DNA of 64,000 bases from Chitinophagales bacterium (GTDB lineage: Bacteria; Bacteroidota; Bacteroidia; Chitinophagales; JADIYW01), in the NCBI GenBank assembly GCA_023957245.1, contig JAMLHJ010000001.1, positions 395,273 through 459,272 on the forward strand. The letters are read 5' to 3'. Under the pieces are notes generated by a model that had not been told where the DNA came from, made no database searches, and worked only from the letters and a program-made list of their open reading frames with translations. Shown one piece after another: positions 45,028 through 50,305 of the stretch (within the stretch, counting starts at the first letter, position 1; each line of letters begins with the position of its first letter). A program made the position numbers and the translations under genes.

Positions 45028-46515
45028 TTATTTCAAATGAGAAATTTCTTTCTGAATCCACCAGAATATTTTAAAAAACATAAAAGCACTCAGGTGGTTT
45101 TGTTCTAATGAAAGCATAATTGTTTCAAACTCATCGAGCAATGCTAGTTTACTTTTCTTATCATCAACATCACTCAACTTCTTAAACATTTTTAGATAAG
45201 TTTTTTCAACAGTTGTATCATAATTCGATTTTTGAATAAGCTTTCGTAATGTATCATACTGACTATACATCAATAAATCCTCACCCTTTTCATACCATAT
45301 AATAAATTGCAATATCCTAGTAAACAAAAGTACATCTGGAAAAATATTTCTATTCTCATGGTGGAGAATTGTATCTATATATTGTAGAGCAAAATCATAT
45401 TCTTGAACATAAAATGCAGCACAAGCAAAATCATAGTGATATATAATAAATAAAGCATTGTTCCTTTCCATGGGCAATGAATATTGCTTCATGAGTTCTG
45501 TCATTTTATAGGCTTCCTTAAAATTCTCTAAAGACAAATAATATGCGTACTTGGCATGATAATATGTGATATATATATCTTCTAAGGCGACTTTATCCAC
45601 CTTTTTTACAGATGCTATCTTTTCAATTTCTTGAATAGTCTTATCTAATGATTCAATCTCTCCAAATGCTTGAATACTTACAAGTCTATTGATATAATTG
45701 CAAATCAATTTTGCATAAATATGAAAGAAGTGAGTTTTAAATTGAGCTTGCTTGTCATATTCATTCAACAGAAGACTTAGACTTTTTGCAGCTTCTTCAT
45801 AGTTATGCTCTAGGATAGCAATATTGCTATAAGCGTGATATATGTAATGCTTTGTTTTAAATGATAACAGTTGCTCTTCTAATAGATTATTTAGGGTTGA
45901 TTTTATCTTTAAGATATCTTCCCTCTCGAAGCTTCTAGTAGATACACCACTATTAAAGATTAAATTTTCAGAAATACTCACTTGAAGTTGTGCTAAATTC
46001 TCATTAAAAATCAATTGAGACAATTCAATCTTCTTCTGAATGAGCAACTGTTTGTCTTCTAAAGTTTTCTTAAAATAAGCAAATAAATCAATCTCTGTTT
46101 GTAGTAAAATGATATAGAGTGAATACATTTCATACTCTTCCAACAATTGTTTAAACGATGCTATTTTCTTTAAAGCCTGATCATAGAGAGATTTTCGAAT
46201 CAAGAATTGAATATGTCCAAATTGTTGAATACTTGTAAAATGCAAATGACTTTTTTCACCAATGGGCGTCAGAGTGTCAAGAATATGCTCATACAAATAA
46301 TAGAAAGCAGCCGCAGGATTTTTTGCAATGGAGGTGTTTTTAAATTCTTTTTTAATATCAGCAATATCAACATCTTTAACCTTACACAAGTAAACAAATA
46401 AATTTAAATATGTTGAATCATTCTTATTGCTTCTAAGAAAATACTTAGACACATAAGCTTTCTCATTGGGAGAGAGTGTATCAAGCAGAAAAAATATATC
46501 ATTCTTTACTTTCAT
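45028..46515 (-). CDS. Helical-repeat cytoplasmic protein, function unknown
   Basis: The product is about 495 residues from ATG 46515 (MKVKNDIFFLLDTLSPNEKAYVSKYFLRSN). The frame opens earlier at 46572 with a less likely start. It is predicted all-helical with TPR-like pairs (ALQYIDTILHHEN, EEAAKSLSLLLNEYDKQAQFKTHFFHIYAKLICNYI) and no signal peptide. The opening (LSPNEKAYVSKY) resembles a group of uncharacterised Bacteroidota proteins. No function is claimed. It is divergent from the ECF operon. Confidence 0.65.
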   Translation of the reverse strand: MKVKNDIFFLLDTLSPNEKAYVSKYFLRSNKNDSTYLNLFVYLCKVKDVDIADIKKEFKNTSIAKNPAAAFYYLYEHILDTLTPIGEKSHLHFTSIQQFGHIQFLIRKSLYDQALKKIASFKQLLEEYEMYSLYIILLQTEIDLFAYFKKTLEDKQLLIQKKIELSQLIFNENLAQLQVSISENLIFNSGVSTRSFEREDILKIKSTLNNLLEEQLLSFKTKHYIYHAYSNIAILEHNYEEAAKSLSLLLNEYDKQAQFKTHFFHIYAKLICNYINRLVSIQAFGEIESLDKTIQEIEKIASVKKVDKVALEDIYITYYHAKYAYYLSLENFKEAYKMTELMKQYSLPMERNNALFIIYHYDFACAAFYVQEYDFALQYIDTILHHENRNIFPDVLLFTRILQFIIWYEKGEDLLMYSQYDTLRKLIQKSNYDTTVEKTYLKMFKKLSDVDDKKSKLALLDEFETIMLSLEQNHLSAFMFFKIFWWIQKEISHLK

Positions 46516-46655
46516 TGCTTCTGATATAATGAAATATACAAAATATTTAAGCAATAAGGAATTAACAAACAATATATTTAAATCAATGTCAAGTTCATCT
46601 TGCTATAGTCAGATTGTCTAATTCTGAACATTGTAAAATATTTTTTCACTGCTTT

Positions 46656-46685
46656 TGTAACCTTTTCATTCTTGGTTGACTCTAA
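46656..46685 (+). promoter_or_regulatory. Putative ECF sigma-dependent promoter
   Basis: TGTAACC (46656-46662) is the classic -35 form of many ECF sigma factors. A CTCTAA-type -10 lies about 17 bases downstream (46680-46685), inside an otherwise TAnnTTTG-free region. The operon encodes its own ECF sigma factor, which suggests autoregulation. A perfect GTCTAGAC palindrome is at 46695-46702. Confidence 0.5.
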
Positions 46686-46736
46686 TATTTTAAAGTCTAG
46701 ACAATTTTTAAATTACTAAAAGCAAAAAATATTACT

Positions 46737-47405
46737 ATGAAAAATTTATTCAGACAGACAGCAACCTTCTACGGGAAGTTCGTACTATTATCAATAGCAT
46801 TCTCTCTAATATTCTCTTTACAAAGTTGTAAAAAGGACGATGTAACAATTGACCCTACAAGTACAGAAAAGTTCAAAGCATTTGATAATGCTATGCAGAA
46901 ACTTTGGGCAGACCACATGCAATGGACTTACAAAACAGTAGAAGCATTTTTTCATGAGCCAGATGCTCTCAATTCCAATCTCGCAAGATTAATTCAAAAT
47001 CAAAAAGATATTGGTTCAGCTATCGTCCCCTATTATGGTCAAGATGCAGGAGATCAATTGACTGAACTATTGATCGAGCATATTCAATTAGCGGTGCCAG
47101 TATTGACAGCAGCAAAAGAGAATAATGAGGTAGAACTCAAAACAGCATTAGACAATTGGTATGTAAACGCAAAAGAGATTGGAGATTTTCTAAATGGAGC
47201 CAACCCTACTCACTGGACACAACACGACATGCATCACATGATGGAAATGCATATTGACCAGACTGTAGCTTACTCAGTAGCACTTCTTCAAAATGACCAC
47301 AATAAAGCCATTCAACTTTATGATGAAGCATTTGACCACATGACACTTATAATGTCAAGAATTCTTTCAGAAGGTATCGCTAAACAATTTCCTAACAAAT
47401 TTTAA
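46737..47405 (+). CDS. His-rich helical lipoprotein, function unknown
   Basis: The 222-residue protein has a signal peptide and lipobox SLQSC (Cys about 31, then KKDD), so it is a lipoprotein. The mature part looks like a four-helix bundle with His/Glu-rich helices: LWADHMQWTYKTVEAFF, LTELLIEHIQLAVPVLTAA, HWTQHDMHHMMEMHIDQTV and YDEAFDHMTLIMSRIL. The clustered His and Asp/Glu suggest metal binding (inference). The segments RLIQNQKDIGSAIVPYYGQDAGDQLTELL match a widespread uncharacterised family also found in Firmicutes. It is the first gene of an operon with a DoxX-like protein and an ECF sigma factor. Confidence 0.7.
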   Translation: MKNLFRQTATFYGKFVLLSIAFSLIFSLQSCKKDDVTIDPTSTEKFKAFDNAMQKLWADHMQWTYKTVEAFFHEPDALNSNLARLIQNQKDIGSAIVPYYGQDAGDQLTELLIEHIQLAVPVLTAAKENNEVELKTALDNWYVNAKEIGDFLNGANPTHWTQHDMHHMMEMHIDQTVAYSVALLQNDHNKAIQLYDEAFDHMTLIMSRILSEGIAKQFPNKF

Positions 47406-47417
47406 AATTATTAAGTC

Positions 47418-47801
47418 ATGAACACAAATCATTCAAATCAAATAGTCAATCAAGTATTTATCATCTTAAAATATACATTTGGTATAGTTCCAATTGTCGC
47501 AGGTGCAGATAAATTTGCAAATATACTCACTAACTGGGAACAATATGTCAACCCAACTATTGCAGGATTACTACCATTTTCAACAGGCACATTTATGATG
47601 ATAGCTGGAGTTGTCGAAATTATTGCAGGTATCATTGTACTTGTTAAAACAGAGATTGGTGCTTATATTGTAGCTGCATGGCTGACAGTTATCGCTTTAT
47701 CTCTACTCATTGGATTTAACTTTGTAGATGTTGCAGTAAGGGATTTAGTGATGGCTATCGCAGCATTTTCATTAGCCAAATTATCAAAAGCAGTATCTTA
47801 A
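47418..47801 (+). CDS. DoxX-like four-helix membrane protein
   Basis: The 127-residue protein has four membrane segments (FGIVPIVAGADKFAN, FMMIAGVVEIIAGIIVLV, YIVAAWLTVIALSLLIGF, LVMAIAAFSLAKL). The early GADKF segment is typical of DoxX/DoxD-like proteins linked to redox or thiosulfate chemistry. It starts 12 bases after the lipoprotein gene and ends 3 bases before the sigma factor gene. Function inferred only. Confidence 0.72.
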   Translation: MNTNHSNQIVNQVFIILKYTFGIVPIVAGADKFANILTNWEQYVNPTIAGLLPFSTGTFMMIAGVVEIIAGIIVLVKTEIGAYIVAAWLTVIALSLLIGFNFVDVAVRDLVMAIAAFSLAKLSKAVS

Positions 47802-47804
47802 ATC

Positions 47805-48455
47805 ATGGAAAAGATTTCAAAATATACTGAAAAAGAAATTATTGAAAGAGTTCTTAATGGAGAAAAACCGCTTTATGAAATCATCATAAGGCGGTATAAT
47901 CCTTATCTATATAAGATAGGAAGATCATTCAACTTCAACCATGAAGATACAGAAGATTTGATGCAAGACACATATATAGACGCATTTAAAAGCCTCTCTC
48001 AATATGAAGAAAGAGCCAACTTTAAGACATGGCTTATTCGTATAATGTTGAACAACTGTTATAGAAAGAAACAAAAATCTTACGTCAAAAATGAACAATC
48101 AACAGAACTCATTCACGAAAATGCAAATCCAATGTTTAGTAAAAAAACAAATAATGCTCAGGAACAATTACTCAATCTCGAATTGGGACATATTATAGAA
48201 ATATCACTTAGCAAAATCCCAGAAGATTATCGCATGGTATTTTCTCTCAGAGAGATGAATGGATTAAATGTATCTGAAACTTCCAATCTATTAGAAATAT
48301 CAGAAGCCAATGTCAAAGTGAGATTGAATAGGGCAAAATCAATGTTAAGAGCACAGATTGAAAAAGCATATTCAACTGATGAACTGTTCAGTTTCAATCT
48401 AAAATATTGCGATCCATTGACAGAAAAAATCATGGATAAAATCAATAAATTATAG
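47805..48455 (+). CDS. ECF-type RNA polymerase sigma factor
   Basis: The 216-residue protein has region 2 (NPYLYKIGRSFNFNHEDTEDLMQDTYIDAFKSLSQYEERANFKTWLIRIMLNNC) and region 4 (SLSKIPEDYRMVFSLREMNGLNVSETSNLLEISEANVKVRLNRAKSMLR), typical of ECF sigma factors of the RpoE-like type. No anti-sigma factor is recognised next to it; the DoxX-like or lipoprotein gene may take that role. It starts three bases after the DoxX-like stop and is likely translated from the same message. Confidence 0.9.
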   Translation: MEKISKYTEKEIIERVLNGEKPLYEIIIRRYNPYLYKIGRSFNFNHEDTEDLMQDTYIDAFKSLSQYEERANFKTWLIRIMLNNCYRKKQKSYVKNEQSTELIHENANPMFSKKTNNAQEQLLNLELGHIIEISLSKIPEDYRMVFSLREMNGLNVSETSNLLEISEANVKVRLNRAKSMLRAQIEKAYSTDELFSFNLKYCDPLTEKIMDKINKL

Positions 48456-48478: not shown

Positions 48479-50305
48479 TTAATTTTTACGAGGAAACATT
48501 CCTATTTTATATAAATCCCCATCTTGTGATATAGTAGAAGTACAACTAGGTCTATAAAAAACTCTAACAGAAGATTCTCCTCCTTGATGTTCTAATTCTT
48601 TAAACCCATATCTAGAAAACTGATTGTTATATTCAGAAATTATAAAGTAAGATTTTGAAGAATATACAACAGACTTTACATACGAATTTGAACCATTTAG
48701 TAATATGCTTAATTTATGAACATTATAATCATTCATATTTTCACGATTAGGAATCATAGTCATTAGTATTCCTCCATCATCTGTTCTAGAGATAGGCCTT
48801 CCTAGCTTAAAATTATTATACTTCATCGTACTAAGAATTGAAGACGTATCATTTGAACCTACTAAATTCATCATAGTTCTAACTCCAACCATGTACTTAT
48901 TGCTAAACTCATTATTTTCAATTGAATATTTTTCAGCGTCTGGATCCATTGGAAACTCATCAACAACTTTTTCCTTTTGAACAATATTAATTGGCGCTTG
49001 AATTTCTTTATACTTCCCAGAATAATCTCCATCGTAAAAAGGCTTGAATCTATCTTGTTCTATTAAACTGACTACTTTTGAAGTCGAAGTATCCAATACA
49101 GACAGATTAGTCAACGACATATAATATCCGTAATCTGGATGATAAAAGATACATGAATATCCCAAATTTTTGCCTTTCTGATCCATTTTTACATCTGTAT
49201 CTAAATTTTTAACATTCGACCTTTTGTAAAAATCATCTCCTTTATCCAATCCAAAAAAATCAATATACCTATCCCTTTTATCATTGCCAACAATTCTAAA
49301 TTTATAGTTGAATGGATAGCTTGTAATATATAATGAATATTTATAATCATTCACATTCCTCATGTCTTTATAATAGCTATGTTTTAAAAATACTTTTTGG
49401 GCATCTTTATCAACTCCTACAACTCTTTCATCATTGAGATACCATGTTATGATTTGCCCTCTAGTTATCAATTTATTTGTAGCCAAATCCAAAATAGTAT
49501 AGTTGGCTGTTGTATCAGTAGCATCTCCTGAATTTTGATTATGATAAAAAACAACGGCACCATCTATAAAACCAATACCATTATAAATAATATTTGATGT
49601 CGGGTATTGTTGTTTTAAAATATCCTCTGGTGTCAAGAACTTATTCTGAGACAATGAATATATCAGATGCATCGAAGTCGAATCATAAGTTGTTAAATAC
49701 GCTTGACCAACAGTCCAATTGATATACAAATAATCTCCAGGTGATTTATATTGAAAACTAAGATTAGCTTGAGGTATATCCATTGAGCCTATAACCTTGT
49801 TATAGTTTTCAATTGAAGTGCTTATAACATTTGGGAGATTTATTGATTTCACTATTGTACCCAAAGTATCTTTGATTGCCAGTTGAACTTTATTTTCCAA
49901 AATCAATTTATGGTCAGCATCCAACCATGTTTCCATTTTTTGATTTTCTAAATAAGGAAAATTTATTGCTGGAAGTAACTTACTAATAACTGTTCTCCCA
50001 TATCGTGTTTTACTGCCTTCTGAATAATTAAAAGACTGTACTTTTAGCCCACTCTTTGCATCAAAAACTATAAATAAATCTTCAAATGGCTGTTTGAAAA
50101 AGATTTGACTTCCATCATCACTATAACAAAATTTATCCATTTGCTGGATGATATTATACTTGTCAGATTGAGAAAATTTTATCGAATCTTTATTCAAACT
50201 AATAATAGGATTTCCGAAGTGAGCAATCCCAATATCGTGATTAGAAATCTGAGAAAAAACCTGATTGGAAAAAAATAATAAAAAGGATATTATAAACCAC
50301 CTCAT
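48479..50305 (-). CDS. Secreted protein of unknown function
   Basis: The 608-residue product has signal peptide MRWFIISFLLFFSNQVFSQ. The mature protein is beta-rich with many aromatic and Asp/Lys residues and WD/PQQ-like strand repeats (FDAKSGLKVQSFNYSEGS, ILDLATNKLITRGQIITWYLNDERVVGVDKDAQKVFLKHSYYKD), which suggests a beta-propeller. No catalytic motif or T9SS domain is recognised. It converges on the ECF operon. Confidence 0.55.
   Translation of the reverse strand: MRWFIISFLLFFSNQVFSQISNHDIGIAHFGNPIISLNKDSIKFSQSDKYNIIQQMDKFCYSDDGSQIFFKQPFEDLFIVFDAKSGLKVQSFNYSEGSKTRYGRTVISKLLPAINFPYLENQKMETWLDADHKLILENKVQLAIKDTLGTIVKSINLPNVISTSIENYNKVIGSMDIPQANLSFQYKSPGDYLYINWTVGQAYLTTYDSTSMHLIYSLSQNKFLTPEDILKQQYPTSNIIYNGIGFIDGAVVFYHNQNSGDATDTTANYTILDLATNKLITRGQIITWYLNDERVVGVDKDAQKVFLKHSYYKDMRNVNDYKYSLYITSYPFNYKFRIVGNDKRDRYIDFFGLDKGDDFYKRSNVKNLDTDVKMDQKGKNLGYSCIFYHPDYGYYMSLTNLSVLDTSTSKVVSLIEQDRFKPFYDGDYSGKYKEIQAPINIVQKEKVVDEFPMDPDAEKYSIENNEFSNKYMVGVRTMMNLVGSNDTSSILSTMKYNNFKLGRPISRTDDGGILMTMIPNRENMNDYNVHKLSILLNGSNSYVKSVVYSSKSYFIISEYNNQFSRYGFKELEHQGGESSVRVFYRPSCTSTISQDGDLYKIGMFPRKN

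Follow-up and report, generated by a model that had tools for sequence, protein, structure and literature searches.

The window, i.e., the whole stretch of 64,000 nucleotides that was analysed, contains a predicted operon of three genes encoding a lipoprotein, a DoxX/MauE-like small membrane protein and an ECF sigma factor. The features of the locus are as follows:

45028-46572, - strand: gene 5' of the operon, with a weak NCBIfam match of the BT2802-like type
46656-46686, + strand: predicted ECF-type promoter (-35 element TGTAACC at 46656-46662, spacer of 17 nt, -10 element CTCTAAT at 46680-46686)
46737-47405, + strand: lipoprotein gene (222 aa; lipobox LQSC, Cys31)
47418-47801, + strand: gene for the DoxX/MauE-like small membrane protein (127 aa)
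47805-48455, + strand: ECF sigma factor gene (216 aa; C-terminal tail FNLKYCDPLTEKIM, which includes Cys202)
48479-50305, - strand: gene 3' of the operon

The lipoprotein and DoxX-like genes are separated by 12 bases and the DoxX-like and ECF genes by 3 bases, with one direction of transcription throughout, as the original prediction had it, and this arrangement supports the assignment of the three genes to one operon. Since both flanking genes are located on the other strand, the operon is a closed unit of three genes. The divergent neighbour (45028-46572) matched the BT2802 family with 69 bits, well below the cut-off, and no link between it and the operon was found. Searches of the window with Rfam and ARAGORN gave no matches.

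Lipoprotein and DoxX-like protein

No Pfam or NCBIfam family matched the lipoprotein above the cut-off. The AF2 model is an all-helical bundle (mean pLDDT 89, core ~98), in agreement with the helix bundle initially proposed. The His-rich stretch HDMHHMMEMH is unconserved except for His172, and the conserved histidines are His60, His115 and His172. Together with Trp57, Arg84, Asn88, Tyr100 and Asn144 these residues are invariant across Bacteroidota, Alphaproteobacteria, Actinomycetota and Bacillota, the three histidines being present in 20 of 20 homologues. According to the predicted secondary structure each of the three is positioned mid-helix in a different helix, and Asn88, Asn144 and mostly Met202 are positioned mid-helix in further helices. 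This placement suggests that they may form one central site. No convincing solved relative of the lipoprotein emerged from searches by sequence or by fold (VIA Z of 7-9, corresponding to helical-bundle background). The lipobox cysteine (Cys31 of LQSC) is missing from some of the aligned orthologues (L020, L022, L025).

Homologues with 34-44% identity were found in Methylocystis, Nocardioides and Priestia, and the one in Methylocystis is encoded directly 5' of a PRK11922 sigma factor gene. In Arachidicoccus (G168, L175) a lipoprotein homologue is encoded in divergent orientation to a second, distinct tailed ECF of the PRK11922 type, and this pair is remote from the DoxX-linked ECF. From these two arrangements the pairing of lipoprotein and tailed ECF spans phyla. 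The helix-bundle homologues on plasmids of Priestia and Cytobacillus (L142, L183) are annotated as glycosyltransferase, a name that is apparently wrong for these Bacillota proteins. In the sister genome of the same genus (G002) the lipoprotein gene is kept with a partly matching promoter (L032), and the ECF homologues appear to be fragmentary (residues 82-216; 124-216 and 5-115 with a stop; L176, L178, L180).

The label DoxX-like is weak by family models: the best Pfam match was MauE (15.5 bits, E-value 0.022), which fails the gathering cut-off of 27, and a profile of the protein gave no match in the PDB. Orthologues with 63-71% identity are encoded directly 5' of orthologous ECF genes, and in 395 Bacteroidota genomes an ECF homologue adjoins 14 of the 15 strong DoxX-like orthologues. 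Based on this adjacency the DoxX-like protein is tied functionally to the sigma factor, probably as one of its outputs.

Promoter conservation and predicted regulon

The TGTAACC motif and the CTCTAA-like -10 element, for which an ECF-typical spacing had been claimed, were located at 46656 and 46680 with a spacer of 17. Conservation of the promoter was determined at 33 loci in Bacteroidota at which an orthologous ECF gene is present, the window among them, by searching 1.7 kb upstream of the ECF gene on the same strand for the exact pattern TGTAAC-N(17-19)-CNCTA. An exact site was present at 27 of the 33 loci versus 0.57 expected, the chance figure being derived from 6 sites per 586 kb elsewhere in the same sequences. 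The other six loci are near-exact: five match TTGTAACCTTT-N13-ACTCTAAT at 16-18 of 19 consensus bases in a similar upstream place, and in the sixth (L021) the sites precede lipoprotein genes ~3.5 kb off. Among the exact sites the spacer is 17 in 28 of 30, and the -10 and -35 cores are invariant. A scan of 34 whole genomes with a stricter pattern gave 43 matches versus 6 for the reversed control; additional pattern matches within genes (L088, L091, L092, L094, L095) were judged to be due to chance. Conservation of the promoter together with the sigma factor gene points to self-activation, and on these sequence patterns it is highly probable that the sigma factor recognises the promoter of its own operon, as the original prediction had considered possible.

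In more distant DoxX-linked systems the ECF gene is divergent from DoxX, and several of these divergent loci contain related sites, e.g., TTGTAACC...ATCTAAT, facing one or both genes. TGTAAC is also contained in the promoters of RpoE7 (ECF16) of Sinorhizobium meliloti (PMC6180224).

In the window's own genome a single site was found at ≤1 mismatch, which is the operon promoter, so the predicted regulon there is the operon alone; sites with 2 mismatches were rejected as background (22 versus 40 control matches). Two other genomes (G102 and G051) have lipoprotein genes that are unlinked to the ECF gene and are preceded by the promoter (19/19 and 17/19), and at three loci (L017, L022, L025) there are separate promoter copies for the lipoprotein gene and for the downstream DoxX/ECF part. 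Sites were furthermore found in front of a DUF4142-cupredoxin unit in Niabella (L081), a unit of GTP cyclohydrolase I (FolE) and an FAD/NAD reductase (L087), a TonB receptor gene (L082) and a gene for a cytochrome c-type protein (L104). Of 31 Bacteroidota loci, 12 have FolE and ~12 have the reductase beside the ECF gene. The lipoprotein and DoxX look like exchangeable outputs, comparable to FolE, the FAD/NAD reductase, DUF4142 and cupredoxin.

Locus L021 has three promoter-type sites in tandem, ~66 bases apart (2429-2593), 5' of a lipoprotein gene and a fourth 5' of a second lipoprotein gene. Good promoter-type sites at position 1638 of L083 (G007) and position 4237 of L085 (G006) have no obvious ORF directly 3', and a small protein or an RNA is possibly encoded downstream.

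Sigma factor family and C-terminal tail

The best family for the sigma factor was PRK11922, with 178.4 bits below the cut-off of 204, which was passed by RpoE8 of S. meliloti (323 bits) and by a DoxX-linked relative (L117, 228 bits). The sequence used as RpoE8, which is 32% identical to the window's sigma factor, was assigned from its pSymB position beside DUF4142 and blue-copper genes, as described for RpoE8 (PMC6180224). In the phylogenetic tree all tailed members grouped together (support 95/94), with a proteobacterial clade including RpoE8 (97/89) and a separate Bacteroidota clade (95/92), within which the window's clade was recovered with 100/100. By sequence, the window's factor belongs to a branch of Bacteroidota that is sister to PRK11922/ECF29. 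Like the window's factor, ECF29/PRK11922 (RpoE8, SMb20592) has no anti-sigma gene beside it and carries an F-x-C-type C-terminal tail; its DUF4142-cupredoxin neighbours are present at related Bacteroidota loci, and its CATCYAAT-type -10 element at some of them. The published ECF29 promoter, however, is GGGAAC/GCATCCAA (PMC6180224) as opposed to TGTAACC/CTCTAAT here, and the window's factor differs further in its separate well-supported clade, its score under the PRK11922 cut-off and its lipoprotein and DoxX partners.

Cys202 of the tail is located outside sigma regions 2 and 4. It is present in all 56 family members compared, which represent three phyla, and only four other residues are as invariant; Phe197 is present in 54 of 56, RpoE8 among them. 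None of the six other ECF factors of the window's genome has such a tail. This invariance makes the tail the best sensor candidate, and we consider the chances that the sigma factor senses via the tail cysteine to be evenly balanced. The protein contains two cysteines in total, C85 and C202. A Cys85-Cys202 redox pair was dropped as a general mechanism because distant members have Ala, Ser or Val instead of Cys85. AF2 modelled the sigma factor poorly (pLDDT 56), and the placement of the tail is not readable from this model.

Two groups of ECF factors have no anti-sigma factor and carry cysteines at the C-terminus as a regulator. In OrbS of Burkholderia cenocepacia (ECF243) the C-terminal cysteines are an on-board regulator (PMC9023288), but there four cysteines bind Fe(II) and the regulon is for siderophores, whereas the window's factor has one invariant tail cysteine; no siderophore genes were found among the operon partners. 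CorE and CorE2 of Myxococcus xanthus (ECF238, formerly ECF44) have a cysteine-based C-terminal sensor (PMC8999054), but the Cys-rich C-terminal domain and the CxC linker motif of CorE are both absent from the window's factor. Compared with the clusters used by OrbS and CorE a single cysteine would be a minimal sensor, and Cys202 could be structural.

Signal, control and proposed mechanism

The genes next to the ECF gene were used to infer the putative signal. Truncated hemoglobin genes are neighbours in Chryseobacterium, where genes for a flavohemoglobin and an Rrf2 regulator are also present, in G051 and, annotated as group III, in Mesorhizobium and Roseateles; in Methylocystis the neighbour is NnrS. 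These loci are from a small hand-picked sample, and the association with globin or NnrS genes holds for a minority of loci. Flavohemoglobin, truncated hemoglobin, Rrf2 and NnrS have roles in the stress caused by nitric oxide and by oxygen. The original prediction had named a metal or a reactive species as the signal, and the neighbourhoods lean to the latter. From these neighbours reactive nitrogen or oxygen species would be the likeliest class of signal, which is the weakest step of the interpretation, and the odds on reactive nitrogen or redox rather than a metal are about one to one.

A sigma factor that directly senses copper or iron, with the His/Met-rich lipoprotein and cupredoxins handling the metal, would have precedents in CorE (PMC8999054) and OrbS (PMC9023288) and would agree with the presence of cupredoxin/DUF4142 units both behind the promoter and at loci of the wider family, as well as with the invariance of H60, H115 and H172 in the lipoprotein. 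It is nevertheless rather unlikely, since the tail has one invariant cysteine and no cysteine cluster, the linker has no CxC and no metal exporter recurs beside the Bacteroidota ECF genes.

It is also unlikely, and slightly more so, that the sigma factor is not controlled post-translationally, with regulation by transcription or proteolysis and a tail cysteine that is structural or serves RNA polymerase binding. Some ECF factors without an anti-sigma factor are controlled transcriptionally (PMC8999054), and RpoE8, for which no anti-sigma factor is reported and whose regulation “remains a mystery”, activated no detectable target upon over-expression (PMC6180224); the latter result rather suggests that the activating signal was missing. 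Against transcriptional control, the only conserved promoter found is of the self-type, and the site of another regulator would need to vary; an invariant cysteine outside the sigma domains would be unusual for a purely structural role.

By family models, no anti-sigma family was matched among the proteins flanking the ECF gene or recurring at related loci, which bears out the original prediction that no anti-sigma factor is recognisable. Its further proposal of an anti-sigma or obligate sensor role for either the DoxX-like protein or the lipoprotein is not supported. That the DoxX-like protein, alone or with the lipoprotein, holds the sigma factor at the membrane until the signal arrives would agree with the adjacency of the ECF homologue to nearly all strong DoxX-like orthologues and with the 3-base gap in the window, yet it is improbable: the ECF gene occurs without the DoxX-like protein in 12 genomes and without the lipoprotein in 25 of 26 (no homologue above the search threshold), and six genomes (G001, G006, G009 and G057, with completeness 100, and the assemblies G160 and G165) keep the ECF gene and the promoter in the absence of both. 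Moreover, the lipoprotein genes that are unlinked behind the same promoter are target-like. It is thus very probable that none of the operon partners is an external anti-sigma factor, although one may be encoded at an unlinked site. An affiliation with the bufferin-type copper/oxidative modules (ECF16, SigF/RpoE7-NrsF), which include a DoxX gene and share TGTAAC-type -35 elements (as in the RpoE7 promoters mentioned above) and small autoregulated operons, is highly improbable, because their partner and anti-sigma genes (DUF692, DUF2063 and DUF1109, i.e., NrsF) were seen neither in the operon nor recurrently at related loci, their -10 element differs and the window's sigma factor groups with PRK11922.

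The interpretation that we favour, to which as a whole we assign a probability of roughly 0.55, is a self-promoted operon with a tail-gated sigma factor and variable envelope outputs. The ECF sigma factor would direct RNA polymerase to TGTAACC-N17-CTCTAAT and thereby to its own operon, giving positive feedback. In place of a separate anti-sigma factor, its own C-terminal tail would gate its activity, with Cys202 as the chemical sensor. The signal would lead to more sigma factor and to an envelope protective set that differs between species, here comprising a lipoprotein whose helix bundle would face the periplasm and contain the conserved three-His core, together with a membrane protein of the DoxX/MauE type, and elsewhere GTP cyclohydrolase I with the FAD/NAD reductase, or DUF4142 with cupredoxin.

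No study of the module was found in literature searches on the gene trio, PRK11922, DUF4142 with sigma factors and NnrS with ECF factors. The original view of a small stress module is probably correct, and it is right in calling the mechanism undescribed, the nearest studied relative, RpoE8 of ECF29, being reported as unexplained (PMC6180224). The operon is a real, conserved and probably autoregulated sigma module of the ECF29-like kind. The sequences show the operon itself, the conservation of its promoter, the dispensability of the DoxX-like protein and the lipoprotein and the invariance of the tail cysteine, and from them we infer self-activation, tail sensing and the signal. More tentatively, it may represent a class of ECF factors, occurring in several phyla, that act as one-component systems: nitrosative or oxidative stress would be sensed directly when it modifies the single invariant C-terminal cysteine, no anti-sigma factor would take part, and a conserved self-promoter would drive interchangeable envelope and pterin/redox outputs. 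For ECF29-type factors, whose control has been called a mystery (PMC6180224), the Bacteroidota branch makes the question of their control directly testable, as it offers a clear-cut promoter, a very small predicted regulon and a single candidate residue, Cys202. The operon also provides a first functional context for a helix-bundle family, as yet without a name, that has three invariant histidines and is distributed over four phyla.
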